The position numbers and the translations under genes were made by a program. Of a stretch of DNA of 64,000 bases, positions 13,582 to 36,304 are shown one piece after another. The notes below the pieces were generated by a model, which worked only from the letters and a program-made list of their open reading frames with translations, was not told where the DNA came from and did not search any database. Location of the stretch: the NCBI GenBank assembly GCA_025362975.1, contig JANYES010000013.1, positions 1 to 64,000 of the forward strand, written 5' to 3'. Position 1 is the first letter of the stretch, and every line of letters starts with the position of its first letter. This DNA is from Alphaproteobacteria bacterium (GTDB lineage Bacteria; Pseudomonadota; Alphaproteobacteria; Rickettsiales; SXRF01).

Positions 13582-13714
13582 ACGATTATTTTTAAACCCC
13601 ACGGTTTCCGCCGATTGCGGCCTCTTGCCTGAAATCTTAATTTCGGTTATGATGGTGCTTGCGTATAAACGTTAATAGTTAATTTCTAACGCCAATAGGT
13701 AATTGGGAGATATT

Positions 13715-16900: not shown

Positions 16901-17402
16901 CCTGAACGACGAAACCAATGCCGCGCTGCCGGATCTGAAGCGCCATGCGCAGTACCGCAAACTGATCCTGCATAAGCCGATAGACGATTTCGATGCCGGG
17001 CAGCAAGAACTTATAAGCTACTGCAAGCAGGCAGCCACGCTACCGCCAACGCAACTGCTCACCGGCCTGCTCAAAAAACTCCATGAACTGCACGGCACGC
17101 GCAACGCCGACGATCTCGCCGAAGCCATCGGCAGCTATGAAGAACAGCGCAATGGTGCGCGCGCCCCCCATCAGCAGCGCCAGCTTAAGCTCGATATTCG
17201 CAAGGCGATCGACGGTGAGCCGGTCATAATCCATGACGATTTGCTGGCGTGGGTCGCCGGTTTCGCCCTGCCCGGGCGCGAGCACGAAACGGCCCGCCAG
17301 CCATTGCTCAAAGCGCTCACCGGGCGGCACAGCGCGGTATCAAAAACCGGCGCGTACACCGACCTTGTAGCCAAAAAATCCGCCGCTTCCAGCCTAGCTT
17401 GA
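13947..17402 (+). CDS. Large hypothetical protein with an internal duplicated domain, a low-complexity linker and HTH-like C-terminal segments
   Basis: 1151-aa uninterrupted ORF with GC-rich core-like codon usage; two ~90-aa repeats; Pro/Ala/Glu/Val-rich linker; ATISRWRTGRKEGD resembles an XRE/Cro recognition helix. Confidence 0.85.
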   Translation: MMDDENLREPPATKAPKAWPEGMPDGPLKDMLVKGIAKTLAAGKIKDRAELDEVIARMGVLIAPEKKRGFREKPAPKPKLTLETWNEGRPGMYPVDAYAVGILLGYGSNELADFLKLAVNDYSRRATTTYNNRYTPQELPTERGMRDTVNGALVFVKMENRQHGDAAFEVEDDDDLRPTRYTKKTTPPATQASVEEVMKPRRTPLPFQELPSPVQEQPKPVKPKAPPVPRAPKSAPLANIPPVIREVRPPAAPDYDTTKPWAYESVTTRQRVLDELEQARESLQAAHDDQKSARSFAFKNDYAQSLIREMEVRYRAVPPVVEALQLLRHRQGAGYNIQIRRIKDEYDYIAPPPESVKPATRAVEIGTRWSYDDVMPRELVVYQLEYAYDKVQAAIIAENNASSGDYAIRKANEEAIGFILQVETNARPIPKVMEALQSLRQRHFGQFTALLAEIRGDKQTVISPPEPEAPVTYQAEAVLATAEAAGMHAPAAIVEAQTPAATAVYESEAALHVVETPAVVSTLRVSDETGMEKPAADIEAAPVHASADEETIAAEATVFKVAPRVRKPKAQTVEPAHDDTPNLTITPPVAVDLVAATSQIKPARVNKRKAHGIEPAVVSPQTKAALDHCFADENPSIDTGAMEVERAVEVGKFFKALRVARGQDSYIELARTLAQHNAGYASEEFDNLISAMSISERELGEPLSDAARNRTYRKHTNPELAQAIADYAYPPEAEQRSGANKRCVEFLSSKIYVTRKAKYRSNMVRESEGEEIGVNASGFKPAAIGKFRKPGGVADLLADAYTARDAMNGFDPAQAEKISIDLYKALTVQLSNGDLERASVGTLNGEETSLNSATISRWRTGRKEGDVKILVEVDHDKLLTVCDALAHSIAPDAATAEKLANLMAGVPWEGKKTNAQIVDYAVEHKLDGAALLQLQRRQLRMKNSEHSKYLGIDATRYYEIINPDSKKTAKTLSIGDFERLVERQGLNDETNAALPDLKRHAQYRKLILHKPIDDFDAGQQELISYCKQAATLPPTQLLTGLLKKLHELHGTRNADDLAEAIGSYEEQRNGARAPHQQRQLKLDIRKAIDGEPVIIHDDLLAWVAGFALPGREHETARQPLLKALTGRHSAVSKTGAYTDLVAKKSAASSLA
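14721..15317 (+). repeat. Duplicated ~90-aa coding domain inside the 1151-aa protein
   Basis: Unit 1 (14721-14981) KPWAYESVTTRQRVLDELEQARESLQAA...VPPVVEALQLLRHRQ...RRIKDE; unit 2 (15045-15317) TRWSYDDVMPRELVVYQLEYAYDKVQAA...IPKVMEALQSLRQRH...LAEIRGD. Confidence 0.75.
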
Positions 17403-17475
17403 TATTTTTTTCAACCTATACTTTTGCCCCCGGAACCGATATGCAGGAGTGACATATCATCAGGGCAGGGAGTTC

Positions 17476-19890
17476 ATGTTTACAACCGATATTCGCAAGA
17501 ATCTTGAAGGCTACATCACCGTGGCCTGCATCGCAGCGGCTACTATCGGGCTTGAGCTGGTTCAGACCCGCATCCTTTCCGCGCTATATTACAATCATAT
17601 CGTGTACCTCACCGTCACCATCGCGCTGATGGGGTTTGGCATCGCGGGCGTGGCCGTGAGCTTGTTATCGAACTGCATTACCGACTGGCAAAAGCCGCTG
17701 GCGATTTGCAGCGGGGCATTTGCGGGCTCGATTGTGCTTAGCATCTACATCGTCAGCCGCCTCCCGATGTGGTATCCGAACGCGCCGATTACCACCAAGC
17801 TGGTGTATTCCTACCTGTTGCTGATGCTGCCGTTTTTATGCAGTGGCACGGTTCTGGGGTTGATTTTCATGCGCAACGGTGCGGATATTTTCCGGTTTTA
17901 CTGTGCCGATTTGATGGCGTCCGCCCTGGCGTGCGGGGCGTTTGTGTTGCTGCTCAATCCGCTCGGGGCGAGCGGATTTGTGTGGGTGTGCGTGGCGCTT
18001 GCATGCGCGGCGTTTGTCCTGCTGGCACGCGCGGCGAAATTGCCGAGCCTTGATGTGTACGGCTTCCTGATCGCGGCTTTTGCGCTGTATATGCTGTGCG
18101 GCACGCATCTGGTCAACAACCAGCCCGAGCCGTATAAAACACTGGCCGCTAAAATGCGCATTCCCGGTGCGCATATCGAAGCGACGGAATGGACGCCGAT
18201 TACCCGCCTCGACGTAATCAATATGCCAGGCCGCGGCCTCGATTTGAGTCAGGATTCCGATGCGCATACGCCGTTTATCCACAGCGGGGTCGTCAACGGG
18301 ATCATCAACGGCGCGAGCCACGGACAAAACACGCGCGGTTCGGTGACGCTGGGGTATTTCATGCATGCACCGCATCCCGACCAGTCGCTGGTAATCGGTG
18401 TGGGTGGCGGTATCGATCTTGTGGCATCCCACGCGTACGGGGCGGTGCATACCACCGGTGTAGAAATCAACGGCGTCACGGCGCGCCTGACCAATGGCAG
18501 CTACGCCAATTACCTCGTCTGGCCACACTGGCCGGATGTGAAAGAAGTGGTGGAAGAGGGCCGCCACTACGTCCGTTCACACCCGCATGCCTATGATACC
18601 ATCACCATGAGCGGCATCGACACGTTTTCGGCGCTGAACTCCGGCGCCTACGTGCTGTCTGAAAACTACCTTTACACCACCGAAGCGTTTGAGGATTACC
18701 TGCGGGGCCTGCGCGCGAACGGCATCATGACCATCAACCGCTGGTTCGAGGCCATCCCGCCGCGTGAAAGCTTACGCCTGGCGAGCCTGCATGTCGAAGC
18801 CTCGAAACGACTGGGGATTGAACATCCCGAAAAGAACATCTTCGTCGTGGTCGATAACGACTGGGCGTCCACCTTCATCAAGGCCGAACCGTTCACACCG
18901 GAAGAAATCCATCGCGCTTTCGAGAAGATTGAAAAAACCCGCCTGCGCGTCGTCTACCTGCCGAAGATCTTCCCGCCGGAAGAACAGGCGGCGATTGAAA
19001 AGGGCCTCGCGGCGGGCCGCAACGCCGGGCTGAACGTGGCCAATGATGCTTATGAGCATGTCATCAATCCGCAATCACCGGAAGCGGAAGCGAAATTCCT
19101 CGACGACTACCCGCTTGACGTATCGCCTGTGTTCGACGACCGGCCATTCTTCTTCGAATACCACAAGGGCCTGTCGATCTTTAACTGGAGTCACGATGAC
19201 AACCGCATCCGCAAAAACGTGAAGAACAATCTGTACATCCTGCTGCTGGTGTGTCTCGTGGTTTCCGCCTGCGCCATTGTCGGGCCGCTGATGATCTTCA
19301 ACCGGCAGGGGCTGAAAACGCAAGGCGCGCCCTCGCTGCTACTGTATTTCGCGTGTCTGGGGCTTGGCTTCATGATGGTGGAAATCGGCATGATGCAGCG
19401 TCTGTCGCTGTATCTGGGCGACCCAATGCATTCGATGCTGGTGGTGCTGTCGGGCCTGCTGTTGTTTGCAGGCGCCGGCACGTATTTAAGCGGGCAGCTA
19501 AACGTGACGCGCCAACATCGCTTCCTGCTCGGCACCTGCGGTTCGGCAGTTGCGGTGCTGGGATGGATTATAGTAATGCCTACCGTCATCTGGCTGACGC
19601 AGGAATGGTATTTCGGCTTGCGTGTCATTATCACGCTGCTGAGCATGCTGCCGGTAGGCCTCGTGCTGGGTATACCGTTTGCCACAGGCCTTGAGTATCT
19701 GTCGGGCTATTGCCCGCGGTTTATTCCTTGGGCATGGGGCATCAACGGGCTGACCAGCGTGCTGGCGTCGATCCTTGCCATCATCATCGCCATGCAGGTC
19801 GGGTTTACCATCGTGCTGGTGATCGGTGCTGGAATTTATGCGCTGGGCCTGTTTGCCATCCGTGCACATGTCCGCAACGCGGCACATTGA
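17476..19890 (+). CDS. Polytopic membrane protein with an embedded spermidine synthase-like (SAM-binding fold) domain
   Basis: N-terminal and C-terminal TM bundles around SLVIGVGGGIDLVASHAYGAVHTTGVEINGVTARL...YDTITMSGIDTFSALNSGAYVLSENYLYTTEAFEDYL. Confidence 0.8.
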   Translation: MFTTDIRKNLEGYITVACIAAATIGLELVQTRILSALYYNHIVYLTVTIALMGFGIAGVAVSLLSNCITDWQKPLAICSGAFAGSIVLSIYIVSRLPMWYPNAPITTKLVYSYLLLMLPFLCSGTVLGLIFMRNGADIFRFYCADLMASALACGAFVLLLNPLGASGFVWVCVALACAAFVLLARAAKLPSLDVYGFLIAAFALYMLCGTHLVNNQPEPYKTLAAKMRIPGAHIEATEWTPITRLDVINMPGRGLDLSQDSDAHTPFIHSGVVNGIINGASHGQNTRGSVTLGYFMHAPHPDQSLVIGVGGGIDLVASHAYGAVHTTGVEINGVTARLTNGSYANYLVWPHWPDVKEVVEEGRHYVRSHPHAYDTITMSGIDTFSALNSGAYVLSENYLYTTEAFEDYLRGLRANGIMTINRWFEAIPPRESLRLASLHVEASKRLGIEHPEKNIFVVVDNDWASTFIKAEPFTPEEIHRAFEKIEKTRLRVVYLPKIFPPEEQAAIEKGLAAGRNAGLNVANDAYEHVINPQSPEAEAKFLDDYPLDVSPVFDDRPFFFEYHKGLSIFNWSHDDNRIRKNVKNNLYILLLVCLVVSACAIVGPLMIFNRQGLKTQGAPSLLLYFACLGLGFMMVEIGMMQRLSLYLGDPMHSMLVVLSGLLLFAGAGTYLSGQLNVTRQHRFLLGTCGSAVAVLGWIIVMPTVIWLTQEWYFGLRVIITLLSMLPVGLVLGIPFATGLEYLSGYCPRFIPWAWGINGLTSVLASILAIIIAMQVGFTIVLVIGAGIYALGLFAIRAHVRNAAH

Positions 19891-19925
19891 TATCAGTCAG
19901 ATTTGATTACGCTAAAGATTTAGTA

Positions 19926-20045
19926 GCCCATAAGTGCTCCCGCAGCGCAGACCCTCTCGCAGCAATCTGAGATGCTAAGCGTGCAGGTTACATCCTTCCT
20001 AAGCAGCATCCGCGCCTAATCGCGGGCCGCGATGGGCATTTTTTT
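19926..20045 (+). ncRNA. Candidate structured small RNA with intrinsic terminator (class unknown)
   Basis: Nested complementary arms by eye: GCCCAT(19926-19931)/ATGGGC(20032-20037), CCCGC(19939-19943)/GCGGG(20022-20026), GCGC(19945-19948)/GCGC(20012-20015), GATGCT(19971-19976)/AGCATC(20005-20010), followed by a T run. Confidence 0.35.
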
Positions 20046-20171
20046 AAACTTTGTTCCTTAAAGTCAGCTTGATGCTGGTTAACAGTTTTTCTGTATTTAT
20101 TAAGAAATTAATATTTAACCCAGCCTCGTTTTTGTTTAAGCTGTAGGTCACTCAAACAAACGAGAGAACCC

Positions 20172-20348
20172 ATGTCCTTCGACCAAGCACCAATGCGTTC
20201 CGGAATCGATTTCGAACGCCTGAAAATGGCCCACCGCGTGATGAGGGATATGGCCGAACCCACCGAGCACATGTATCACATGCTCAAAAGCCTCGTGGAT
20301 GACCGCGAACGCTTAGGGCTTAAATTCCCCGAGCATTTTCTCGCTTGA
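20172..20348 (+). CDS. Small hypothetical protein (58 aa) directly upstream of the double-AAA+ gene
   Basis: MSFDQAPMRSGIDFERLKMAHRVMRDMAEPTEHMYHMLKSLVDDRERLGLKFPEHFLA*; below the ORF-track length cutoff; cgagagaaccc upstream. Confidence 0.6.
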   Translation: MSFDQAPMRSGIDFERLKMAHRVMRDMAEPTEHMYHMLKSLVDDRERLGLKFPEHFLA

Positions 20349-20367
20349 GCCTAAACCGCACCCGGGC

Positions 20368-22386
20368 ATGCCTGCGCCGAAAAAAGACGACAAGGTCCCC
20401 GCGTCCGAAAAAGAAGAAAACTTCGAAACTAAGCTGATCAAAAAAGATGCGGTCGCGCTGCAATACCTCGACAAATGCATCGGCGATATGTTCGGCATCG
20501 TCGGCCAGAAAATCATGGACGTGGAAGATGCTCTGCGCGCCAACCCCAACGCCATTCCCAAAACCGACCTCGAAACTAACGTCGACCGCTTAACCGAAGC
20601 GCTCAAATTCAAACCAGTCCAGAAAAAACTGGTGAGTTTCTTCACCTGCTCCGAACGCGGCAATTTCGATGTCATCTTGAAAGCCGCCTGCCGCGACGAC
20701 AAGGTGTCGTCGGCGTATTACGCCAAAAGCCTCGCCGTACTGCTCGATGAGAAAAAACCCGACGTGATCGAAAAAGCGCTGGACCGCAACCAGACGCTGG
20801 TGGGCATGAACTTCATCGGCATGGATAACGAAACCGGCATGTACCATGTCGAAGAATCGCTCGATGTGCTTTTGAGCAGTCGCTACAAGGACCGCGACGA
20901 ATTGTTGTCCAACCTCATCGGCCCGAAACCGACCACGGCGCTTACCCCGCGCGATTACGAATACATGGCCAAAGATTTCCAGGCCATGACCGAAACCATC
21001 CACGGGTATTTAGCTTCCCCAGCCAAGTCCGACGGGCAGGCGGACCCTAAAAACCTGCTGATTTACGGCCCCCCGGGCACCGGCAAAACCGAAATCACGG
21101 CGGCACTTTCGCAGAAACTGAACATGCCCGCCTTCCTCGTGGGCGTTGCTAAAAAAAGCGACGACGGCAATGCCGCCATGACCGAACCCAAACGCGAAGA
21201 TCGCCTGAAAGCACTCGAGCGCGCCGCCTTCATCCTTCGCACTTCGGGCATCAAGGGTTTCCTCGTCATTGACGAATCCGAAGACATCCTGCGCAGCGCC
21301 GGGCAGAACCCGACGGGCAGCAAGGAATACGTCAATCGCCTGCTCAACCACCTCGCCGTGCCGGTGGTGTATATCTCCAACCAGCACTCTTACGACCCTT
21401 CCAACATCCGCCGCATCAGCCCTTGCTTCAGCATGGACTACATGCCGATTTCCGCCAAGGCCAAGGTGATCGCCACGCAGGCGGAAAGCCTAGGTAAAGT
21501 AACGCTCACGCGGGAAGAATCTATCGATCTTGCCGCCAAGGCGGTCGATCTGTCGGTGGCCGATGTCGCTAAATCCATTCGCACCATCTCGCAGCAGTTT
21601 TCGTTCAGCAAAAATCCGCAGAAAGACCATTTCGTCCAGAATATGGAAATCGAAATCGAGCGGGCGCTGCGCATCAAGAACAACGGCGTACCGCCCTCGC
21701 CAAAGCCCACGCCGCTGAATGAAAAGAACTTCCATGCCGAACTGGTTTCCACCAACGCCACCTCGTTTACGGCGCTGCGAAAAAACCCGGCGAAACTGAC
21801 CGGCAAACCGACACTGGTGTTCGGCTGGCCCGGAACCGGCAAAACCTCGCTCGCGCAGGCCATCGTCGGCAAGGCGGGCAAAGACACGCAGATTCCCCCG
21901 CGCGTCATCAACTGGAGCACGATGAAGGACGACAGCGCCTTTGCCATGCAACTCGAATACGCCAAGCGCGATGGTGTGGCCGTGATTATCGACGATATCG
22001 ATCTCAAGACCTTCCAGAAGGAGGCGAACACGATGGAGCGCATTCATGAACACCCGTATCCAGTGATTTTCGTGGGCCGCCTGAACCGTAGCATGTCGCA
22101 AGAAGAAATCGCCGACGCCGTGGACGGGTTCATCCCGCTTTCCACCGATAATTTGACCAAAGAACAGACCGTCGCGGCAGCTAAAAAAATCCTGAATGTC
22201 GATGTGGCGGAGAGTGAGCTGAGTACGGTCGAAAACCTCAACATCCAGTCGATCGTCACCATCCGCGACCATATCGACGCCATCGGCGTACTGGGTGATA
22301 AAAAACTGACGATGGAGTTGATGAAAGAACAAGCCAAGCTGCGTAGCCCCGTATCCGACCCGAGCAAGCGCATAGGGCGGTCATAG
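20368..22386 (+). CDS. Tandem (double) AAA+ ATPase
   Basis: 672 aa; Walker A LLIYGPPGTGKTE with Walker B FLVIDESED, and Walker A LVFGWPGTGKTS with Walker B-like VAVIIDDID. Confidence 0.85.
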   Translation: MPAPKKDDKVPASEKEENFETKLIKKDAVALQYLDKCIGDMFGIVGQKIMDVEDALRANPNAIPKTDLETNVDRLTEALKFKPVQKKLVSFFTCSERGNFDVILKAACRDDKVSSAYYAKSLAVLLDEKKPDVIEKALDRNQTLVGMNFIGMDNETGMYHVEESLDVLLSSRYKDRDELLSNLIGPKPTTALTPRDYEYMAKDFQAMTETIHGYLASPAKSDGQADPKNLLIYGPPGTGKTEITAALSQKLNMPAFLVGVAKKSDDGNAAMTEPKREDRLKALERAAFILRTSGIKGFLVIDESEDILRSAGQNPTGSKEYVNRLLNHLAVPVVYISNQHSYDPSNIRRISPCFSMDYMPISAKAKVIATQAESLGKVTLTREESIDLAAKAVDLSVADVAKSIRTISQQFSFSKNPQKDHFVQNMEIEIERALRIKNNGVPPSPKPTPLNEKNFHAELVSTNATSFTALRKNPAKLTGKPTLVFGWPGTGKTSLAQAIVGKAGKDTQIPPRVINWSTMKDDSAFAMQLEYAKRDGVAVIIDDIDLKTFQKEANTMERIHEHPYPVIFVGRLNRSMSQEEIADAVDGFIPLSTDNLTKEQTVAAAKKILNVDVAESELSTVENLNIQSIVTIRDHIDAIGVLGDKKLTMELMKEQAKLRSPVSDPSKRIGRS

Positions 22387-22574
22387 GTTCAATATCAAAA
22401 GATATCGATAACTTTACGCCGGGAGCAAAGCCGCTGCCGGAAGCGGTAGTGTTGCCGTTCGTGCAGACCGATGCCCTTGTAAAACACACGGCCCGCCTTC
22501 ACGAGGAAGGCGAGCGCGAAGCGTCTTTAGGATATCCATTATGTTCATGAACAGGCGAAGCTGGCTGTGGGGCA

Positions 22575-22856
22575 TTGGAAGAAGTGAGCTTTCAGGAATT
22601 TTGTCTATTCCCTATTTTCAATTACCTCATAAGTAGCTTTCATTCACCCGTGTTGCCGAATGGAAACGCTGGGTACAATATGCCGTTGGTGAAATATGAA
22701 TCCGACCTTTTACAGGATATGATTACGATTCATAATAAATGCACAGGTTTTGCTGACAACGAACCTGCCGAAGCCGCCTATGACCTAGGCGAAGGAATAA
22801 CCGATGACAGCCAATATTTCCTAAACTTGATACCGATTGGTAATGCATTATTATGA
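22575..22856 (+). CDS. Hypothetical small ORF
   Basis: 93-aa ORF in an AT-rich region; no recognised family. Confidence 0.2.
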   Translation: MEEVSFQEFCLFPIFNYLISSFHSPVLPNGNAGYNMPLVKYESDLLQDMITIHNKCTGFADNEPAEAAYDLGEGITDDSQYFLNLIPIGNALL

Positions 22857-22980
22857 GAGGATTCTTCTGGTAAAACTGCACTCTTGTCATCTGTCGCCAA
22901 ATATCAATAATTCAACTATTTATAGCTGAAACATTAACCACTATAAAGAGCTTTCCTGTAATTTGCCTGTTTTTAACATA

Positions 22981-23688
22981 CTATATTACATGACTAAAAT
23001 CAGTGAATATCATCTTTAATGACGTCGCTCCATTTAATTTCACCCTAACTTTTTCAGGCTGCTCAATGGCAAGATGCTCTGTGAATCGGTAGAGCAACGT
23101 TGAATAGCGACATGATTTACGCGTATCGAAGTATAATAACTCCGCTGGCAGCGCATCTTTTGCATCGTATTTGAATGGGGGATAATCACAGGAAATAAGG
23201 CCTAGACGCTTATATAGCTTACTATATGTGCCTATTTCCGCTGTCGTGTAGGCAATAGGAGCCATAGAAAACGCGTAATCAAATGCAGTACGCAGCAATG
23301 CCAGCAAGATAGTTTGCTTGCCTCGCCATTCATAGGCAAAGGCAAGACGGTTTAACTCACTTGCCAGCGCACAGGTAATCACGTCCGGCAAGAGGATGTA
23401 ATGCTCTAATTCTGAAAACGGTTGTAGGAGAACGCGGAAACACCCAATGACGCAGCCATGATGCACTGCACCGAACCATGCCGCTTTTTGGGCTAATGCA
23501 TCGTAGAGATAAGCGCCTTGCTTATCTTTCTTGATTCGCAATCCTGATTTATTGTCTGTCGGGGGAAGCCAGCCTTTCTCAATGACATACACTTCGTGTA
23601 GCAACCGGAGCGCTTCGATAATTTCATCGCCATGCAACTGTCGTATCTCAACGCCTTCAACCATTACGGCAGTGCAGATAGACTTCAT
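22981..23688 (-). CDS. N-acyl amino acid synthase / LuxI-like acyltransferase (FeeM-like, GNAT fold)
   Basis: LLHEVYVIEKGWLPPT...AAWFGAVHHGCVIGCFRVLLQ...ELNRLAFAYEWRGKQTILLALLRTAFDYAF...YKRLGL; adjacent to a LuxR-type gene. Confidence 0.5.
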   Translation of the reverse strand: MKSICTAVMVEGVEIRQLHGDEIIEALRLLHEVYVIEKGWLPPTDNKSGLRIKKDKQGAYLYDALAQKAAWFGAVHHGCVIGCFRVLLQPFSELEHYILLPDVITCALASELNRLAFAYEWRGKQTILLALLRTAFDYAFSMAPIAYTTAEIGTYSKLYKRLGLISCDYPPFKYDAKDALPAELLYFDTRKSCRYSTLLYRFTEHLAIEQPEKVRVKLNGATSLKMIFTDFSHVI

Positions 23689-23761
23689 AAAGACCTCAAA
23701 GCATTATATGTGAACCAAGAAATTCGTTGGGTCGTAGCTTACGAGGTGCAATGAAGTCGCG

Positions 23762-23781
23762 CATACCCCAAACGAGGTATG
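23762..23781. promoter_or_regulatory. 20-bp dyad, candidate LuxR-type operator upstream of the FeeM-like gene
   Basis: CATACCCCAAACGAGGTATG: 8-bp arms with 7/8 complementarity, 20 bp in total, lying between the regulator and synthase genes. Confidence 0.35.
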
Positions 23782-23793
23782 AATAGCGTTATA

Positions 23794-24931
23794 TCAGGAA
23801 TGGCATAAAAGCGGATTGTTGAGAATAGCGCGTATCAAATCGCTTTGGCGGCTGGTGCCAGTCTTTGAAAAAATGGTTTTAAGCTGAGTTTTAGCAGTAT
23901 GCAGGCTGATTTCGACACGCTCAGCATAGTCCTGCAAACGCTCACCCTCTACCAATGCAGCCGTTAAACGCGCCTCCGCAGGAGTAAGTCCATAATGCTG
24001 GTTTAGTAGTGAAGGATTGATAGCACGTTTTTGATTAGGGTTAGTGATGAAAATAACAGCTTTTGGGTGATGCCGTTCAGACTCTGCATGTTCAGGCCTT
24101 AAAGGGCTTATTAAAATGGTTGAGGGAGCACCATGACGGTTAGGTAATGTCATATGACCCCCAGCATGAATACAGCGGCCTACACCTGCAAGGGCTGCGT
24201 CTTTGATTAACTTTAATAGTACAGGATTACGCGTAACTTCTTCTGTATAAAGCCGCCCCGAACGTACACTCAGCCCCATTTTTGATGCCAGTGCCTGCTC
24301 ACCGATACCGTTGCAGAATAGAATCTTTGCAGCAGCATCAACGACAATTATGCCGATATTGGCGTTTACTAATCCTTCTAACGCCGCATTTTGTTGGAAA
24401 GAGAGAGCGTTCAGCCGATTTGAAAGACGAATGGCTTGCGTTAAATGCGGAATAACAAAATTGCAGGAGCGTTTTATCTTTTTCGCCAAACTCCTTTTCC
24501 CCTTCAGCCCGATGCACTCCGAACACGCCGCGAAGATTCTGGCTGAGAGGCAATATGGTTCCCATGACATCGGCGATGCCAATTTGTTTGACCCAATCAT
24601 TGTAGAACTCCGTGCCCGTCAACTCCCGCCGTGCTATCACATCGTCGCTGACGAAAATTTTCCCGAATCCATCCAAAGGAATACTCTGCGCCCATAAATC
24701 CGTTTTATAGTAATGCGCCTCATAGCTGACAACCATGTCTGGAGTATAATTAGTGGTAAAGCCGAGAGGTATAGCTTGCCCTGCATCAGTATCCAACAAT
24801 GCCAAAGCACAACTGTGAGAATCAAACGCTTTGGCAATTAAGCCAACCATACCATCCCACCCGCGCTGCTCGATTGGCGTTGCGTAAATGTCTTCAATCA
24901 GTCTGGAAAGTTTTGCGAAGTCTTTTGACAT
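23794..24931 (-). pseudogene. LuxR-family regulator with C-terminal HTH, split by a 1-nt frameshift
   Basis: N-part ORF 24338..24931 (...GEKEFGEKDKTLLQF) and C-part ORF 23794..24600 (VIPHLTQAIRLSNRLNALSFQQNAALEGL...YGLTPAEARLTAALVEGERLQDYAERVEISLHTAKTQLKTIFSKTGTSRQSDLIRAI) join if one T is removed from CAATTTTGTT (plus strand ~24457-24462). Confidence 0.75.
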
Positions 24932-25193
24932 GATAAACCCTATGCAACAGAACTTGGAGCCTGCTTGAAGGCAAGCAAATTCTTACCATTTGATTTTACA
25001 GGTGTAAACAGTATCTGCTCAATTTTGATTATTTGCCGCCAAGCATGGAGTCACTATAGAATAGACTGACTATATCACGCAGGGCTATTTTGTATGCTTC
25101 TAATGCCCGTAGCGTATACTTACGATTAAAACTCAAAGAAGCATGTTTCCTTTGTTCCTTAAAAGCGGAACAAAGTGAATAATTTTGGATGCT

Positions 25194-25299
25194 CTTGCTT
25201 ACGGGCTATTTACCTCGATCACCTGAAGTGGTCAAGCTATTGAAAAAAATGGCGTATCTGAGATGATTCGAACGTCCGATCTTTGCCTTCGGGAGGCAA
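25194..25299. repeat. Left direct repeat: tRNA-Arg 3'-half remnant plus its 3' flank
   Basis: cttgcttacgggctatt...gtggtcaagctattgaaaaaaatggcgtatctgagatgattcgaacgtccgatctttgccttcgggaggcaa aligns along its length with 33888-33994. Confidence 0.8.
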
Positions 25300-25326
25300 G
25301 ATAAATTCTATGTTGGCATATCTCTG

Positions 25327-27561
25327 TTAAATAGGGTTCAGATCAATATCTAGCACCATTACTTCACATTGAAATGCACGATATCGGAAGAAACGATCTT
25401 TTTTTTCATCGTCTATCTCGTTTGCCGTTAATGTGTGATGGCCGCGCTCCACCGGCCATAGGAAGCTCCCTCCTTCGGTGGTGGTAACGGGCTTCCCGTT
25501 AAGTACCCACACTACCTTGCGGCCAGCGGCGATACCACCTGCGACAAATTCAAATGCCTGGCGGTCGGAAGGAATACGAGGATCATAGGCAATCTGTAAT
25601 CCTTCGGTTGGCCGTATCAGTGTAAGACCGCGCGGTGGATCAGTGCGCTTTTCACCACTTGGTTCAGTGCCGGGGATAAAATATTCCGTGCGTGAGAAGC
25701 AATCTTTTTTCCCGGCACCTTCATCATAGTTGGTGCATATTTCTTTCTGTACCAGCTTCGGACTTAAGTAGAGCGCATGGGCTGTGCCAAGTTCGGCAAG
25801 GTCGGCAAATATTCCGCGCAATATAAGTGCTGGTCCTACAGAGCCTGTAATGCCGTCCATAGGTGTTTGGTCTAAATTGCCGAGCCACACACCCACCGTA
25901 TAGCGCGAATCAAAGCCAAGCACCCAGGCATCCCGGTAATCCGTAGAGGTGCCTGTCTTGACGGCGGTTTGTACTGGAAGATTGAGCACGCTTCCTGCTC
26001 CGAATTCGCGCCTGCGGGCGAATGGATCGGAGAGAATATTAGCAATTAACGAAGTTGCTTCCGGCGAATAGATACGGACGTTTTCACGGGTAAATGGTGG
26101 TTGAGGCAAGGGCGTCAGCGGGCGGAATACGCCACGATTTGCCAAGGCACTATATCCCTGAACCATTTCAAATAATGTCACCTCTCCATTACCCAGCGCG
26201 AGTCCTTCTTTATAAAATTCCACTGGCTGTGTAAGGCTCGAAAAGCCAAGCGCGTGCAACGTGTCAAGATAACGGGATGGCGTTATGAATGTAATTGTTT
26301 CCAACGCCGGGATATTGAGAGAATTGCCTAACGCTTCCCGAAGTGAAATTTTACCGTAAAATGTATGGCTGTAATTATGGAAATCATGCAACCCAGAGCC
26401 GATAGCCTCAGCCATAGGTGCATCATCCAATTCTGTTGCTGGCGACCAGCCAGAATCAAGCGCCATTGCGTATAAGAACGGTTTCATTGATGATCCGGGT
26501 TGACGCGGCGAGCGCACGGTATCGATGTCATGTCCCGGCGTTTCTGTCTTCAATTCTTCATTTCCGGCGCCGCCTACCGCCCAGGCAAGAATTTCGCCTG
26601 TGGTATGATCGACTACCAGCAGTGCGCCATTATGCACCTGCTTGCGTTTTAATGCCTTGATTCGCTCATCTAGCAAACTTTGTGCTGTATGCTGCAATTC
26701 GCCATCCAAAGTCGTAAGTAATGCGCCATTCTCGCTTAAACGATAGGGGATCGTTTCACGAATATAATTAATGAAATGTGTTGTGCTTAGTGGTGGTGAA
26801 GGCAGTTCAAGGGTGATGGTTTCAGCAAGTAATTGTTTATTTTCCTGCTCTGTTAATTCCTTGCGCTCGATCATACTCTGGGCAAGTCTTGCAACGGCGG
26901 ATTCTATCGCATCGGGATTTTTATACAAATCGAGTGCCGATGGTGCGCGGGGCAATATAGTTAGTGCCAGCATTTCCTTATGCGTCAGCGTATCCATATC
27001 ACGGTTGAAATAATAACGGGCCGCTTGCGCTACGCCACGGCGGTTGGCTGCATACGGCACCTGATTAAGGTAAAATTCGAGGATTTCACCTTTGCTTGCA
27101 TGCATTTCCAATAAGGTTGCCTCAAATCCTTCAACCCAACGCGACCATAAATTGCGCGGGCGTGGGTGAATAATCCGCACTACTTGCTCGGTAATCGTGC
27201 TGGCGCCACGCACCGATTTGCGTGCGTGAATATTCTGCCATAAGGCGCTGGCGCGGGCTTTCCAATCCACACCGTGATGCTCAAAAAAATGTCGATCTTC
27301 CGAAGTAACGAATGCCTGACGCAGTAATTCAGGCATTTCGTGCAATGGCACAATATCTACCGTATTGAAACGGTTCTGATAGGAAATACCGAGCGGTTTG
27401 CCCCGGCGGTCTAACACTTGGAAACGTTGGGCATCGTTTGTCGCGGCACGCAAAGAGAGCGTTGGTGTTTGCACGTCCCATGCGGTTTTGAAGGCAATAA
27501 CAGCAACAAGTGCTATTGTCCCGCGAAACGCTATTTTCCCATATCGTTTGTATTTTGACAT
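25327..27561 (-). CDS. pbpC: Penicillin-binding protein 1C
   Basis: Transglycosylase ATSEDRHFFEHHGVDWKA...GASTITEQ; transpeptidase PGSSMKPF, NSLN, KTGTS; PBP1C-type C-terminus; adjacent to A2M. Confidence 0.93.
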   Translation of the reverse strand: MSKYKRYGKIAFRGTIALVAVIAFKTAWDVQTPTLSLRAATNDAQRFQVLDRRGKPLGISYQNRFNTVDIVPLHEMPELLRQAFVTSEDRHFFEHHGVDWKARASALWQNIHARKSVRGASTITEQVVRIIHPRPRNLWSRWVEGFEATLLEMHASKGEILEFYLNQVPYAANRRGVAQAARYYFNRDMDTLTHKEMLALTILPRAPSALDLYKNPDAIESAVARLAQSMIERKELTEQENKQLLAETITLELPSPPLSTTHFINYIRETIPYRLSENGALLTTLDGELQHTAQSLLDERIKALKRKQVHNGALLVVDHTTGEILAWAVGGAGNEELKTETPGHDIDTVRSPRQPGSSMKPFLYAMALDSGWSPATELDDAPMAEAIGSGLHDFHNYSHTFYGKISLREALGNSLNIPALETITFITPSRYLDTLHALGFSSLTQPVEFYKEGLALGNGEVTLFEMVQGYSALANRGVFRPLTPLPQPPFTRENVRIYSPEATSLIANILSDPFARRREFGAGSVLNLPVQTAVKTGTSTDYRDAWVLGFDSRYTVGVWLGNLDQTPMDGITGSVGPALILRGIFADLAELGTAHALYLSPKLVQKEICTNYDEGAGKKDCFSRTEYFIPGTEPSGEKRTDPPRGLTLIRPTEGLQIAYDPRIPSDRQAFEFVAGGIAAGRKVVWVLNGKPVTTTEGGSFLWPVERGHHTLTANEIDDEKKDRFFRYRAFQCEVMVLDIDLNPI

Positions 27562-27571
27562 GGCTTAAGCC

Positions 27572-30500
27572 TCAAGGCTTTGCCGCCGGTGCCGTTTCCT
27601 GCTCACCAACTTTTAGATTTAACCCCTCAGTTTTGCCATATACGTCAGGATCGTACATTTCCTCAGCCATGCTAGGCAAGGCACTGAACGTGCCGGTGGC
27701 GATAGCTTGTGCAGCATAGGACAGGTGATAATTTCCTGCTGGCAAATAATCGGAATAGAAGCGCACCGAATCATGCCGAATTTCTTGATGGTAGAAGCTC
27801 CAGCGGCTCACTCCAAAATCAATCCAGTCGGAGAACTTAAACCAGAACGAACCACCCGCCGCGCTAAAATCACCTTTTCTGGCATCGACTTCGGATGCGG
27901 TTGCGAGATCACGATTGACTGGCTCCAACCCACCCGGCACCGAATCATCTACTACTACGAAATTGCGGGCGGCGGGAACGGATAGATATAAGTCAACGCG
28001 CACCAATTCGCCGCGCTTAATTTGTGCGGGCGATTGTAGCAATTCCCATTTTCCACCGCGTTCAACACTATATTCGCGGTGTATTTCTATACCGGCATTG
28101 GCAGGTTTGCTCATTTCAACTGGCAATGCGTAAGCCAGCCGTGTTGCGTAATAGAGCCGTCCCGTACCGCTACGCTCGATTTGGACAGTTGCTTTACGGC
28201 CAGCATCGCCATCTTTAATTGGACGTTCTAAGCTCGCTGCTGGATCGCGTACGTCTTTGAAGGCCGCTTTGCCAAAGGTTTCACCATCCATGCTCGCTTT
28301 AACGGCCATGTTCGGTTTATCTTTCTCATAAACACGCGCAAAATCTATCAGCGCATTCATGCAGAACATATTTTCCTGCGTATTTTCCCAATGGTCACGG
28401 TTTTTGCGATCCTGAGTGATGGCACGCACCAGTTTGAACAGCACATCACCAACCAGTTTCTTGCCATCTTCACGTTCACCATAAGCCGTGAATGCATCAA
28501 GCACCGCACAATTTTCACGCAGCGGTGAGGCAAGAATACGGGTATAGCTATCATCCCATGTTTCGCTGAATACAAACTTGCCGCCAGTTTCATTAGAGGT
28601 GGCCAATATCATCTTCGCTACATCGGGCGCATATTTCTCTCCGCCTTTAATCGCCAATGCCGCTTGCATGAAATAGCTTTTGCCGAACAGCGACATTTTC
28701 TTCACATGCGGTTGATAGCGCTCCAAATCAGCTATGTCGGTTTTACCGCGCTCAGCCAATGCAGCCAACGCCACCGCACGCACGGTAGAAGTCATGCCTT
28801 CGGAATAGAAATCCGGCACGGCATCGTTCTTAAGTAGATTGCTCAAATAGGTATGCAGTTTATTTTCTACTTGCTCAGGAACGGTATAACCGCTTTTACG
28901 CAGCCAGTTGAAGGCAATGGCCGTATAAGCGCTTAAGTACGGATCGACATACTGATCCTGCGCCAGGAAATAGGTCATACCGCCATTTGGCGCTTGGAAA
29001 CTTGCCGCCTGATCGAGCGTGGATTGTGGCAACGCATCACTGCCTTCCCATTTTAGGCCATCAGGTAAATAGGCTTTCAGGTTCTTATAGTGCGCCGCCA
29101 TGACGCCTTTGCTCAATTTCTGCTCCCAACACATATATGGATAATCACGCATATACTTAAATGCGCCCGAAACATTTCCGATAACGGTCGGTGAGGCAAT
29201 AACGCTAACGCTGCCAATATCCGGTAATATATCTTTCGGGAACTGGATAGGTTCTTCGATTTTATCTTGTGTGGTGGTGCCATAATTAGCAGCAACGTTA
29301 AGGCTGCGGCGCTTGTTTACCGGCACATTATGCACCATGCCATCACGATCAAGCTCATCACCCGCCATGACAGTAAAACGTAACTCTCCAGCTTCTACAT
29401 CGCGCGAAAGCGCTATCGCTGTGGTTTGAATCGGCATCAACACGGTTGTGCGTTTATAAGGAGCCAGTGTAACCGTTTTCGTCAAGTCGGCAGGGGTTTT
29501 AGCCGCATCGAGATTACCCTCGGTATGAACGGTAACATTAAGTGTGCGTTCCTTGTCAGTGCGATTCATCACACTGAATCCGGCATCGAATGTATCACCT
29601 TCCATAACCTGATTTGGCATCACGGGGCGCACTTCCGTAGGGCGATTAACTTTAAAATTAGCATCACCCAACCCGAAACGGTCAGTTGGCGTGGTGGCAA
29701 TGGCCAGAATACGCCAACCAGTCAGATTGTCCGGCGCATCAAAGGTTGCGGTTGCGTTACCGTCCTTATCGGTTTTAAGTTCAGCATTCCAATAACTCAC
29801 GAATTTGAACAAGGAACGCATGCTCAAATCTGCGCCGCCATCGCCGCCGGGATTCGCGCCTTTTTTCTCAAATCTTTGGCGACCGAGAAGCCGGGTAAGT
29901 AGGCTGTAGTTCCGTAAATCGAGGCTATCTAACTTATAAAAGCCAGCGTATGGATCAAAATAGCTTTTGCCACCAGCAATCAAGTCGAATACCGATTCGT
30001 CAAGTACGGCAACCGTGAGTTCGATAGGCTCCTTTTTATCCTTCATGCGCGGCTCGGCATGTAGCGTTACCGTTACTTTATCACGCGGCTTGTAAACCGG
30101 TTGGGCGGTTTTAGCAGTGATCACCATTTCCTTGTAAGGGTCTTTCACTGGCACCGTGACATAACCCATACGGTAGGTAGGCTTACCTAAATCCACTTGG
30201 CCTTCGCCTAACGGTTTTTCGACACGCGGTGAAACGATAACGACCGAAAGATAGAATCCCGGCAGGTAGTCAGGTTTGATTTTGAATTCGACTACAGGCG
30301 TAGAGCTATCGAACGTTTGCACGAAATGATCGATGACGCCGTAGCGCTCGATGGTGATCAATGCTTTAGCGCCCGGATAGGGATTTTTTACCAAATAGCG
30401 TGCGGTATCGCCTACTTTATAGTTAGTGCTTTCGGGAACAATGGTCAGGCTGCTATCGCTGCCATTATCCCACATAACAAAATCATGGCCGACCGCATAG

Positions 30501-32080
30501 GTGCTGAGGGTCGTGGAATGGTCATTGCCCTTAGTATCCTTGATTTTGGCTATTGCACGATAAACACCGGCTTTATCGGGTGTAAATGTGCAGGTAAGTG
30601 GTGCATCTTCCGATGCTCCTTTGCATCTGCCCACTGCCTCCCATTCACTATGATATTCCGTCAGGTAAGCATTGCCCGCGCCTTTAACGCGTGCCGCCTT
30701 GGTGGTTTGATGTTCCAGCGCAATATTTACCGGCGTGCCTTTAACTGGATTGCCGTGATCATCCACGACGATATATTGAATCGCAGCTGGTTTTCCTACG
30801 TTGTAGAGCCATTCGGTAGCATGAAGGCCGACCAAGCGATCAACGCCCACATAATCGGCATGCGATTGACCAGTAATATATTTACCCCGATCATCGGCAA
30901 CGGCGCTTTCTACCAGTAGCTTCCCATAAACCACTTTGGGAGTGCCGGTCGAAAAATTCAGCGCAAGTTCGCCTTTATCATTCACCTTATCGATTTTCTG
31001 GAAAATCTGCTGCGAAGGCGTTTCGTATTGGTAGCTATCGAACTGGAAATTTTTAGCCAACGGATGCTTGGACATGAATGGCGCACTATCAAGCATTGCA
31101 GTAATGCGCGTCGCGGCATCCGTATATGCACCGCCAGAGTGCAATTCGGCGTGGGTTGCTACATCCACTTGCTCGTCGGCATGAAATAGATCGCCGTTCA
31201 GCTGGTTGCCTACATGGGAAGAGGAAGGCGTAAAATCGCTGACCAGCACCCGCATGGGAATCCATGATTTCTTAGTGGCGCTATATCTGTCATTATCAGC
31301 GTCATTATTTCTACCATCGGCACCGCTGTCAGGCTGTTCTTCGGCGTTTTCATCCTCATTATCATCAGATTTAGCAGCAAAATCGGCAATCAATTTGAAT
31401 TGATACCAACCCACCGCGCCTTCTTTAGGCACGATAAATTCGCCGCTTGTTCCGCCGAAGGGTGATAGCTTGACGTCTTTAACATCTTCCACCACCTTAC
31501 CCATAGGATCGAGGATTTTTAACCGGTAGCCTTTGGCTGGCCCAGGTATGAAACCATTATTGTCCTGATTGCGGACGTAGATTTTATACTGGATTGTATC
31601 CCCGGCACGGTAAATCCCTTGTGCGGTAGTACCCCAAGTACGCATATGCCCATAGCGCTGCTTATTGGAAGGATAAACCGATTCGCTACCCGAAGCGCGG
31701 TAAGCATCTATGATAAACGATTGCGCTATCGGCAATAGCGCCATGTCATCACCTTTTTCCACGCGCAGGAAATAACGCGTATCTTCATCACGATATTTGT
31801 TTGTAATCGAAAGATCAGGGTCGAGCGTATCCGTTCCCGGCAGGAACGCTATACCGGAAACATCGGTTGTGGCTTGCGCCGTATTATCTTTAACCGTGTG
31901 CAGCGTTGTGAATGCATCTTGATATATACTAACTTTAGCGCCAGCGACCGGAGCGCCACTAACCATATCCGTTACCCAGGCGATCGTATTAAAATGACCA
32001 AGTTTAAGATGCACCTGATAAGGTGCTACCTGTGCAAATAGACGAGGGTAATATTTTCCGACAACTGGATCGGTTTGCAA
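27572..32080 (-). CDS. Bacterial alpha-2-macroglobulin, central and C-terminal part (thioester-containing)
   Basis: MG domains, LTGWRILAIATTPTDRFG, thioester motif CWEQ (29120-29131), C-terminal receptor-binding-like region; N-terminal part is in the overlapping ORF 32026..33660. Confidence 0.9.
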   Translation of the reverse strand: MQTDPVVGKYYPRLFAQVAPYQVHLKLGHFNTIAWVTDMVSGAPVAGAKVSIYQDAFTTLHTVKDNTAQATTDVSGIAFLPGTDTLDPDLSITNKYRDEDTRYFLRVEKGDDMALLPIAQSFIIDAYRASGSESVYPSNKQRYGHMRTWGTTAQGIYRAGDTIQYKIYVRNQDNNGFIPGPAKGYRLKILDPMGKVVEDVKDVKLSPFGGTSGEFIVPKEGAVGWYQFKLIADFAAKSDDNEDENAEEQPDSGADGRNNDADNDRYSATKKSWIPMRVLVSDFTPSSSHVGNQLNGDLFHADEQVDVATHAELHSGGAYTDAATRITAMLDSAPFMSKHPLAKNFQFDSYQYETPSQQIFQKIDKVNDKGELALNFSTGTPKVVYGKLLVESAVADDRGKYITGQSHADYVGVDRLVGLHATEWLYNVGKPAAIQYIVVDDHGNPVKGTPVNIALEHQTTKAARVKGAGNAYLTEYHSEWEAVGRCKGASEDAPLTCTFTPDKAGVYRAIAKIKDTKGNDHSTTLSTYAVGHDFVMWDNGSDSSLTIVPESTNYKVGDTARYLVKNPYPGAKALITIERYGVIDHFVQTFDSSTPVVEFKIKPDYLPGFYLSVVIVSPRVEKPLGEGQVDLGKPTYRMGYVTVPVKDPYKEMVITAKTAQPVYKPRDKVTVTLHAEPRMKDKKEPIELTVAVLDESVFDLIAGGKSYFDPYAGFYKLDSLDLRNYSLLTRLLGRQRFEKKGANPGGDGGADLSMRSLFKFVSYWNAELKTDKDGNATATFDAPDNLTGWRILAIATTPTDRFGLGDANFKVNRPTEVRPVMPNQVMEGDTFDAGFSVMNRTDKERTLNVTVHTEGNLDAAKTPADLTKTVTLAPYKRTTVLMPIQTTAIALSRDVEAGELRFTVMAGDELDRDGMVHNVPVNKRRSLNVAANYGTTTQDKIEEPIQFPKDILPDIGSVSVIASPTVIGNVSGAFKYMRDYPYMCWEQKLSKGVMAAHYKNLKAYLPDGLKWEGSDALPQSTLDQAASFQAPNGGMTYFLAQDQYVDPYLSAYTAIAFNWLRKSGYTVPEQVENKLHTYLSNLLKNDAVPDFYSEGMTSTVRAVALAALAERGKTDIADLERYQPHVKKMSLFGKSYFMQAALAIKGGEKYAPDVAKMILATSNETGGKFVFSETWDDSYTRILASPLRENCAVLDAFTAYGEREDGKKLVGDVLFKLVRAITQDRKNRDHWENTQENMFCMNALIDFARVYEKDKPNMAVKASMDGETFGKAAFKDVRDPAASLERPIKDGDAGRKATVQIERSGTGRLYYATRLAYALPVEMSKPANAGIEIHREYSVERGGKWELLQSPAQIKRGELVRVDLYLSVPAARNFVVVDDSVPGGLEPVNRDLATASEVDARKGDFSAAGGSFWFKFSDWIDFGVSRWSFYHQEIRHDSVRFYSDYLPAGNYHLSYAAQAIATGTFSALPSMAEEMYDPDVYGKTEGLNLKVGEQETAPAAKP

Positions 32081-33660
32081 AGAACCAAATACCGCGCCTG
32101 TTTTTCATCCAACATATCGCGCACGCCGAAGGGAACGGCAAATTGCACATCCTTCACACCCGGAACGTCTTTATGGAATGTCTGCCCGTCATCGCTGCTT
32201 TTGGCAGTCAAGCGGCGATAGTTGAATGTGTAATTATTCAGGTTATTAACAAAGAACGGCACTTCACTATCAACTCCCTTCTCCAATACTGCATCGCTGT
32301 AATCCAACACAAAGTTAGGATTGCGATGGTCGGTCGCAAAGGTAGAGGAAATAGAATGCCGCATCTCCCGACCGAACATATCCTGCACTTCGATAGGGTC
32401 TTGATGTTTGAACCATGACTTGATCCAATGCCATAGCCACTCGAAAATATTCATCGTCTGTGAGCGCGATTGCACCGTATATTCTTGTGCGGCTTTCAGG
32501 CCACCAGGGAGCCATACTTCATACGTTTTCCCTTTGCTATGTGGCTGGCGGAATTGATAGCCAACCTCAGCGCCACCTTCGGCATTATCCGTTGTTTCCG
32601 CTTCTTGTGTCTCCTCATCTGATTCCTTCCAGCCGCCGACCGGAGGGGTGAATTTTACCATCTTACCCATTTTGTCGCGCTCTACCGGCGTAGTGAACGA
32701 GAGCTGTACGCCCTGCATCGGATTGCACTTCCCAGTGGGCGACGTGTCAGCCGGAACCAGCAATTCTTTGCCATCATTCATGGTGCATTTAACGCCAACG
32801 AAGGTGAATTCCGGGTAGGTATCGAATTGCACGATTTCGTTGGAAGTAATACTAGCCTCAGGGCCAAGCGCAGAGATCAGCCCTGGCTCAGTTTTCAACA
32901 CTATATGCGTATCCAGCGGCAATTCCCTCACCGGCTCGATCAACCATATCCTGCGTGCTTCTTTTCCTGATTTTTTACGAAGATCATCATCGCTTTTTTG
33001 CGATGGTGCTTTTTTAAAGAGCAGCGCGTACCTCTCTCCCGGAACGGGGATGAATTGTGGTTGCTCATGATCCGTTGGGTCAGGCTTAACCTTAAGTGCG
33101 ACACGTTTATTATCATCGCCTACATTCAGGAACACATGCTGCGCCACCGATTCCTTATCCACCGGCTGATTGAACACCAATCGCATAATTGGATATCCCG
33201 GCGATTTCCACAGGCGGAATTCCTTATAGCGAATATCGGAACGCTGGGTAATGAAGCTGTGGTGATAGGTATCGGGAATGGTTACGTCATCTTCCGCTTT
33301 AATTCCTGGCTTGATTTCCAGGGTGTAATGCGTCGCTTCCCTGAGCGGCTCCTTGTCCGGCAGATTACACGCAAGTGCCGATGTATTTATCCACCGCCAT
33401 TCGCAAGGAATAGCCGGAGTAATGATTACAGGAATTTCGGAAGACGGACGCTCCATTTTCCCGATAGGCACCACGGGACGATTAAATTGGATGACAATCT
33501 GCTTACCGGTAGGTACATCCTCACCGTCCGGCGTAACTCTTATAATTTCTAGAGTTTTAAGTTTGGCTGCTTCAGCGGAATCAAAAGCAGCATAGGTAGT
33601 AAAAGGCGATAATAATACTATCGCGGCAGTAACAAGAAATAAGAAACGATTTGGAAGCAT
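32026..33660 (-). CDS. Bacterial alpha-2-macroglobulin, N-terminal part (signal peptide), frameshifted from the downstream part
   Basis: MLPNRFLFLVTAAIVLLSPFTTYA signal peptide; ends ...GVRDMLDEKQ; adding one A to the A5 tract (plus-strand T5 at 32101-32105) gives MLDEKTGAVFGSLQTDPVVGKYYPRLFA in one frame. Confidence 0.85.
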   Translation of the reverse strand: MLPNRFLFLVTAAIVLLSPFTTYAAFDSAEAAKLKTLEIIRVTPDGEDVPTGKQIVIQFNRPVVPIGKMERPSSEIPVIITPAIPCEWRWINTSALACNLPDKEPLREATHYTLEIKPGIKAEDDVTIPDTYHHSFITQRSDIRYKEFRLWKSPGYPIMRLVFNQPVDKESVAQHVFLNVGDDNKRVALKVKPDPTDHEQPQFIPVPGERYALLFKKAPSQKSDDDLRKKSGKEARRIWLIEPVRELPLDTHIVLKTEPGLISALGPEASITSNEIVQFDTYPEFTFVGVKCTMNDGKELLVPADTSPTGKCNPMQGVQLSFTTPVERDKMGKMVKFTPPVGGWKESDEETQEAETTDNAEGGAEVGYQFRQPHSKGKTYEVWLPGGLKAAQEYTVQSRSQTMNIFEWLWHWIKSWFKHQDPIEVQDMFGREMRHSISSTFATDHRNPNFVLDYSDAVLEKGVDSEVPFFVNNLNNYTFNYRRLTAKSSDDGQTFHKDVPGVKDVQFAVPFGVRDMLDEKQARYLVLCKPIQLSENITLVYLHR

Positions 33661-33763
33661 TTAATACCGCGCGCGATGGGACGAGCGGATCATAAATTAT
33701 TTATATTCAAATGCTACTGATTTAGTGAAACGTTAGAAATTGTGCGCATGCGCAATGGCGAAT

Positions 33764-33834
33764 TGGCGGCCTCGATACGAATCTAACGTGCGGCCTGGTC
33801 TTTCGGAGGGGCGCTTTATCTAGTTGAACCGTAC
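33764..33834 (-). pseudogene. Decayed tRNA-Arg copy
   Basis: tggcggcctcgatacgaatctaacgtgcggcctggtctttcggaggggcgctttatctagttgaaccgtac aligns along its length with the intact tRNA-Arg at 33946-34022, with substitutions and small indels. Confidence 0.7.
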
Positions 33835-33887
33835 AAAATAATACCCTATTGCTTGCTTTCATTCATTCCATTTATGCAAGTTCTTAT

Positions 33888-33994
33888 CTTGCTTACGAGC
33901 TATATTCTGTACGGTCACTTGATGTGGTCAAGCTATTGAAAGTATTGGCGCACCCGAGACGATTCGAACGTCCGACCTTTGCCTTCGGAGGGCA
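33888..33994. repeat. Right direct repeat: 3' flank plus 3' half of the intact tRNA-Arg
   Basis: Partner of 25194-25299. Confidence 0.8.
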
Positions 33995-34022
33995 ACGCTC
34001 TATCCAGCTGAGCTACGGGTGC
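33946..34022 (-). tRNA. tRNA-Arg (anticodon CCG), CCA encoded
   Basis: GCACCCGTAGCTCAGCTGGATAGAGCGTTGCCCTCCGAAGGCAAAGGTCGGACGTTCGAATCGTCTCGGGTGCGCCA; acceptor GCACCCG/CGGGTGC; anticodon loop CTCCGAA. Confidence 0.96.
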
Positions 34023-35374: not shown

Positions 35375-36304
35375 TCAGGCCCGCGGGTGGGCGTTCTTGT
35401 AGGCCTGCATCAGTCGGGTCTTATCGACATGAGTGTAGCGCTGGGTGGTGGAAAGGCTGACATGCCCCAATAGCTCCTGAATGGAGCGTAAATCCCCGCC
35501 CGCCGAGAGCAAATGGGTGGCAAAGCTGTGGCGGAACGCATGCGGCGTCGTTGATTCAGGCAAGTTGAGGGCGGCGCGCAGCTTGCGCAGTTGCAGCTGG
35601 AAAATGCCGGGGTCGAGCGCCATGCCGCGCTTACCCAGAAACAAAGGCGCCTTGGCGCTGAACGGGTACGGACAGGCGCTCACATAATCGGCAATCGCGG
35701 ATTTGACCACCCGCAGCACCGGCACGTGGCGCTGCTTGTTGCCCTTGCCAATGATGCTGAGCGTGTCGCCCGAGGGGATGTCCTTGTAGCATAACGATAG
35801 CGCTTCGCTGATACGCAGGCCACAGCCATAGATCAGAATGAGCAACGCAAGATCGCGCTTGTTGATCCAATCCTCGTCATGCTGAGTGCCGATGACTTCC
35901 AACGCGGCTTGCGCCTGCTCGACGCCCAGCGCCTTCGGTAGCGCCTTTTTCAGCTTGGGCCCGCGAATGTGGAAAATCGCCGAATGGCTGATCGTGCCGT
36001 GCTTTTCTAAATAACGGTAAAAATTTTTGACCGTGGAAAGCGCGCGTGCCGTGGACGACGGCTTGAACTCTCGCAACCGGCTGGCAAGCCATGCGCGGAT
36101 ATCGCGGGTTTCCAATGCTTCGATCTGCTTTAGTGTTACCTGGCCGCCTAGATGCTGGCCAAGGAAGAGGCAAAACTGCGACAGATCGGTGGTATACGAC
36201 ACCACTGTATGCTGCGAACTGCGCCGCACATGGCGCAGCCATTCCTGCCATTGGGTGATGGTTTCGGCGAATTCAGGGGAAACGGGAAGATGGTCGCAGG
36301 TCAT
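35375..36304 (-). CDS. xerC: Tyrosine recombinase XerC
   Basis: LLILIYGCGLRISEAL...GKGNKQRHVPV...TPHAFRHSFATHLLSAGGDLRSIQELLGHVSLSTTQRYTHVD; near a DUF484 gene. Confidence 0.92.
   Translation of the reverse strand: MTCDHLPVSPEFAETITQWQEWLRHVRRSSQHTVVSYTTDLSQFCLFLGQHLGGQVTLKQIEALETRDIRAWLASRLREFKPSSTARALSTVKNFYRYLEKHGTISHSAIFHIRGPKLKKALPKALGVEQAQAALEVIGTQHDEDWINKRDLALLILIYGCGLRISEALSLCYKDIPSGDTLSIIGKGNKQRHVPVLRVVKSAIADYVSACPYPFSAKAPLFLGKRGMALDPGIFQLQLRKLRAALNLPESTTPHAFRHSFATHLLSAGGDLRSIQELLGHVSLSTTQRYTHVDKTRLMQAYKNAHPRA

Follow-up and report, generated by a model that had tools for sequence, protein, structure and literature searches.

The gene pair pbpC and alpha-2-macroglobulin (A2M), a putative cassette for cell-envelope defence, in the 64-kb stretch of DNA analysed here (the window), which comes from an uncultured alphaproteobacterium, is probably the cargo of an old, composite and decayed genomic island, which lies in a tRNA-Arg(CCG) gene and has a layout like that of a cis-mobilizable element (CIME). 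Horizontal spread has been proposed for bacterial A2M that occurs with PBP1c, and to our knowledge the vehicle of this spread is rarely visible. In the window, an acquired cassette sits between decayed copies of tRNA-Arg, and the tRNA gene is therefore the probable entry point of the cassette.

A search with ARAGORN found one tRNA in the window, an intact tRNA-Arg(CCG) whose sequence is identical to that of several family members, and Rfam concurred with this assignment, which the preliminary description of the DNA had already made. When the tRNA plus 66 bp of downstream sequence was used as a BLAST query against the whole genome, the top non-self match was the minus strand at 25193-25299 (82% over 107 nt, E 2.3e-23), and an ungapped comparison gave 85% over 84 nt, the two copies being 8696 bp apart. 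The tRNA-like part of the match (relic 2 in Table 1) extends from the 5' strand of the anticodon stem through to CCA, and the remaining ~57 bp, unbroken with it, corresponds to the sequence immediately downstream of the tRNA itself. The diverged direct repeat of the tRNA 3' half plus ~58 bp of flank that had been proposed was thus borne out by pairwise alignment, at 82-85% identity. Taken alone, the flank had no further match across 344 genomes of the order.

In the interval that separates A2M from the tRNA, local alignment revealed another 3' half of tRNA-Arg, in a more advanced state of decay (relic 1). The tRNA and the repeat described earlier are thus both real, but the attachment copies are decayed and number three, one of which had been missed. 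From the anticodon loop to CCA, relic 1 is identical to the tRNA at 34 of 46 positions without gaps. Its score of 22 exceeded the best obtained with shuffled queries (19) and was equalled by none of 150 shuffles over both strands of the window, and by none of 5000 query shuffles when the short interval alone was searched. The similarity extends into the D-arm (41 of 20000 shuffles did as well). A donor tRNA copy brought from Methylovulum was considered as the source of relic 1 and is unsupported, since the tRNA-Arg(CCG) of the family is closer (34-35/46) and every other tRNA-Arg in the set, including those from Methylovulum, reached at most 30/46. Given the positions of the two relics, the A2M-pbpC pair is bounded by tRNA-Arg remnants on both sides, 103 bp ahead of the A2M start and 27 bp past the pbpC stop.

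Table 1. Coordinates of the tRNA-Arg(CCG) gene, its decayed copies and the neighbouring genes in the window.
Feature	Position	Strand	Evidence or remark
Compositional island, GC 47.6% vs 56.5%	22500..34022	.	GC segmentation
FeeM-like N-acyltransferase, AT-rich extension	22981..23688	-	without homolog in family or class sample
Regulator, weak LuxR-type HTH match, AT-rich extension	23794..24600	-	weak
Downstream flank, second copy, unbroken with relic 2	25193..25249	-	
Relic 2, displaced tRNA-Arg 3' half	25250..25299	-	
pbpC, penicillin-binding protein 1C family, catalytic motifs present	25327..27561	-	
A2M main ORF: MG2, bait region, A2M, bMG10; thioester motif CWEQ ~29131	27572..32080	-	
A2M N-terminal ORF, signal-like start, Big_5 domain	32026..33660	-	
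A2M one-base frameshift site, run of five A	32097..32109	-	
Relic 1, decayed tRNA-Arg(CCG) copy, D-arm through CCA	33764..33827	-	
Flank ("arm"), ~58-60 bp, immediately downstream of tRNA; duplicated at 25193-25249	33886..33945	-	
Intact tRNA-Arg(CCG), attachment gene	33946..34022	-	ARAGORN, Rfam

As the preliminary description had it, pbpC and A2M are the only genes between the 25.2-kb repeat and the tRNA, but A2M is present as two ORFs, split by a one-base deletion at the run of five A. The remaining frame is open, and the frameshift is therefore either recent or a sequencing error. The A2M of G001, a member of the same genus, is likewise frameshifted by one base, at a different place (L118, near 2290), so both genus members having A2M carry a one-base frameshift in it. 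The thioester motif, CWEQ, is that of type I A2M. The pbpC product had the PBP_1c model as its best match at 469.7 bits, slightly below the NCBI cut-off of 494.2, and a PBP1c-type protein thus adjoins a thioester A2M.

To delimit the island by composition, we took the best two-break solution of a GC segmentation over the window, which placed breaks at 22500 and 34250 with 47.6% GC inside and 56.5% outside. Because the first break lies at 22500, the AT-rich stretch overruns the 25.2-kb repeat by ~2.7 kb; the AT-richness reported earlier for the ~8.6-kb segment between the repeats stands, but that interval is not the compositional island, which spans ~22.5-34.0 kb. GC3 of pbpC and A2M is 0.46-0.51, compared with 0.60-0.74 for genes beyond the AT-rich segment. 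The extension has a GC content of 44.2% and the other part 48.8%, and no tRNA fragment was found near 22.5 kb by local alignment; with this difference in GC and no fragment at that end, the island looks composite. A variant of the island explanation moves the boundary, making the whole of ~22.5-34.0 kb a single larger island, to which the FeeM-like and LuxR-type genes also belong and in which the 25.2-kb repeat is an internal scar. The GC break at 22.5 kb agrees with this variant, as does the FeeM-like gene, which has no counterpart elsewhere in the family or the class sample. We consider the variant possible but rather doubtful, given that its outer end has no tRNA fragment and that the GC of the two parts suits two separate arrivals. 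Searches for the FeeM-like gene in the family, in 385 class genomes, in plasmids, in PDB sequences and in two genomes of Methylovulum gave no match; the gene adjoins the weakly LuxR-type gene (22981-24600), and the two are perhaps a signalling pair. The AT-rich part is separated from ppdk by three large genes (13947-22386), two of them without a Pfam match and the third encoding an AAA protein that weakly resembles a family of anti-phage ATPases.

The horizontal origin put forward for the pair agrees with the trees, the AU tests and a PriA control. PbpC of the window is 74-76% identical to that of two Methylovulum MAGs and 62-64% identical to that of G001, which carries the only other close PbpC copy in the genus; for A2M the corresponding values are 81-82% and 63-72%. 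The PbpC tree joins the window with Methylovulum (support 100/100), and a window+G001 grouping was rejected for both PbpC (AU p 8.5e-5) and A2M (AU p 2.6e-4). PriA, in contrast, is 79% identical to that of G002, from the same genus, and 39-40% identical to that of Methylovulum. The longest DNA match to Methylovulum, 25363-33654, covers essentially the two genes only. Judged from these sequence comparisons, the pbpC-A2M pair is horizontally acquired, and its genes are now nearest to Methylovulum (Gammaproteobacteria).

Methylovulum PbpC nests within a clade of copies from the window's own alphaproteobacterial order, so a methanotroph-like lineage possibly first received the pair from alphaproteobacteria and later passed it back. 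The same nesting would suit an ancestral pair in the genus that was passed to Methylovulum, its composition having drifted and the tRNA relics being incidental. This is very unlikely, since pbpC has a GC3 of 0.77 in G001 and 0.46 in the window (0.53-0.57 in the Methylovulum copies), the AU tests reject a clade of G001 and the window, and a close pbpC copy was absent from G002 and from the other family members searched. Close PbpC occurred in 5 of 121 genomes of Methylovulum's family, and the pair is therefore sporadic there as well. No pbpC was found in viral contigs, where the pattern of tRNA end plus flank gave 18 matches, and plasmids held no close pbpC relatives above 60%.

The same site was then compared in G002, which is rated 100% complete and has no PbpC of the window type. 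There, priA, TAL, DUF484 and xer are followed by the tRNA, with ppdk and glyS ~15 kb farther on (the distance from tRNA to ppdk is 20 kb in the window), and the interval holds sugar transferase, acyltransferase and capsule-type genes instead. The DNA behind the tRNA in G002 is thus a variable region and not a clean empty site. The search for an empty site suggested beforehand was answered in part: a sister genome lacks the cassette, but it carries other DNA at the site, and no strictly empty site, with both flanks joined at tRNA-Arg, was found among the relatives' genomes, which are largely draft assemblies. The opposite outcome, in which all sisters carry the pair here with a phylogeny that follows the species tree, is contradicted by G002, which is without the pair, and by the foreign trees.

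Three integrase-bearing islands were found at tRNA-Arg(CCG) in the same family, on contigs 4 and 13 of G002 and in G005, and all three break at CCTCCGAAGG in the anticodon loop, the same place as the break in the window. They are AT-rich, with 40-44% GC between flanks of 49-60%. On contig 4 of G002 (L116) the intact tRNA and the displaced 3' half are 10.6 kb apart and the integrase adjoins the displaced half; on contig 13 of G002 and in G005 the tRNA 5' half is left behind, with the integrase beside it. At least two tyrosine integrase lineages are represented, with 27-28% identity across lineages, and the two of the 5'-half type are 60% alike. The island on contig 13 (L117, 8270-13250) is a mirror image, with its 5' half at 8270 by the integrase and an intact tRNA-Arg at 13174-13250. 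In L119 (G005:C125) the tRNA-Arg(CCG) gene is interrupted by the integrase element, with its 5' half at 6732 and its 3' part at 13640-13704, and the element brings an apparently complete replacement tRNA-Arg(CCG) of different sequence at 13408-13484. L116 (G002:C4) has a second, diverged priA (66% vs 79%), and this contig may be a contaminant from another family member.

The view that the layout results from insertion at a tRNA 3' end is supported by the anatomy of the repeat, the breakpoint in the anticodon arm and the integrase islands of the family. Since the repeat also takes in ~57 bp of sequence beyond the tRNA, the cassette could alternatively have been placed by homologous recombination between repeats. 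If a tRNA-Arg array with a common flank pre-existed, and the cassette entered by homologous recombination or transformation with no integrase, this would explain why the repeat includes the downstream flank and why relic 1 extends into the D-arm, and tRNA-tail repeats do occur at this gene in family members. We regard such a history as unlikely, however, because relic 2 begins in the anticodon arm, as the integrase islands of G002 and G005 break, and the relatives' tail repeats hold just 21 nt of the tRNA, far below the relics. These tail repeats are 80-bp tandem units downstream of tRNA-Arg(CCG) in L126 (10813-10994), L193 and L124 (4206-4306), each with a hairpin and the 21 nt at the 3' end of the tRNA, and those of L126 gave an Rfam match only to the tRNA itself; they may resemble the rtT repeats at E. 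coli tyrT.

As had been stated from the start, there is no integrase inside the cassette, and neither an integrase nor a remnant of one was found at 13.6-34.15 kb of the window. An integrase-family gene at 35375-36304 was rejected as the island integrase, being a conserved XerC-like gene that lies beside DUF484 and priA in the family. The preliminary description had also seen a tRNA-bounded cassette as a concrete route for the pair, a suggestion that did not carry over to other pbpC-A2M loci: those examined have no tRNA repeats at their ends, only an unrelated tRNA-Leu 3.3 kb off in L120, and the window thus records one entry event, not a general route. It is highly improbable that integrases of other islands, acting at the anticodon loop of the same tRNA, move the pair in trans as a tRNA-Arg cassette with no integrase of its own, and that such a cassette is a recurrent vehicle for the pair in the group.

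We return to a decayed tRNA-Arg island, for which the end of Methylovulum homology at the two genes, with the relics 27 and 103 bp outside, has to be set against the missing integrase trace, the missing joined empty site and the AT-rich stretch that continues past the repeat. Under this explanation, an A2M-pbpC element would have integrated through a tyrosine integrase that acts in the anticodon arm. The element would have provided the tRNA with a 3' end, and the former 3' half would have been moved out to 25250-25299. Relic 1, between A2M and the tRNA, would stem from one or more later events at this tRNA, either insertion or partial excision, and the integrase and transfer genes would then have been lost, with the cassette remaining between decayed attachment copies. 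The role of an integrase and this order of events are what we infer from the layout, and the element now looks immobile.

tRNA-integrated islands of the kind catalogued by Islander, whose definition includes an integrase filter (PMC4383910), resemble the window element in having a regenerated tRNA, a 3' fragment that was displaced but keeps the orientation of the tRNA, a crossover in the anticodon region (site A) and a segment of >2 kb. The downstream fragment reaches the 3' end of the tRNA and starts at the known crossover region, but there is no integrase gene within the segment, so Islander's filter would reject it; it also differs in its third relic and in a repeat reaching beyond the tRNA. 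CIMEs (PMC5704250, PMC7563491) likewise have cargo between attachment copies, and the window element is within their size range of 1.2-13 kb and without recombination or transfer genes of its own. Relics 1 and 2, the putative attachment sites that bracket the pair, are both decayed, unlike those of CIMEs, and no parent ICE or IME was found. The gene-free segment of roughly 120-190 bp beside the cassette is like a microCIME, although streptococcal microCIMEs are farthest from the target gene (PMC5704250, PMC7563491) and the short segment of the window is nearest. The pair of pbpC and a type I A2M gene was introduced in PMC5764988, with the hypothesis that A2M traps proteases in the periplasm and PBP1c repairs the wall; the window pair shares the adjacent genes, the thioester CxEQ and the PBP1c family, and differs in that A2M is frameshifted and the pair lies within a tRNA island. 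Islands integrated in tRNA genes, CIMEs and the pbpC-A2M pair are thus already known, and the window element is a further example of a tRNA-Arg island. It allows a probable entry point, tRNA-Arg(CCG), to be named for an A2M/PBP1c pair whose phylogeny is foreign, at a tRNA gene that is a hotspot of integration in the family, and it shows the decay of such islands to bare cargo between attachment scars.
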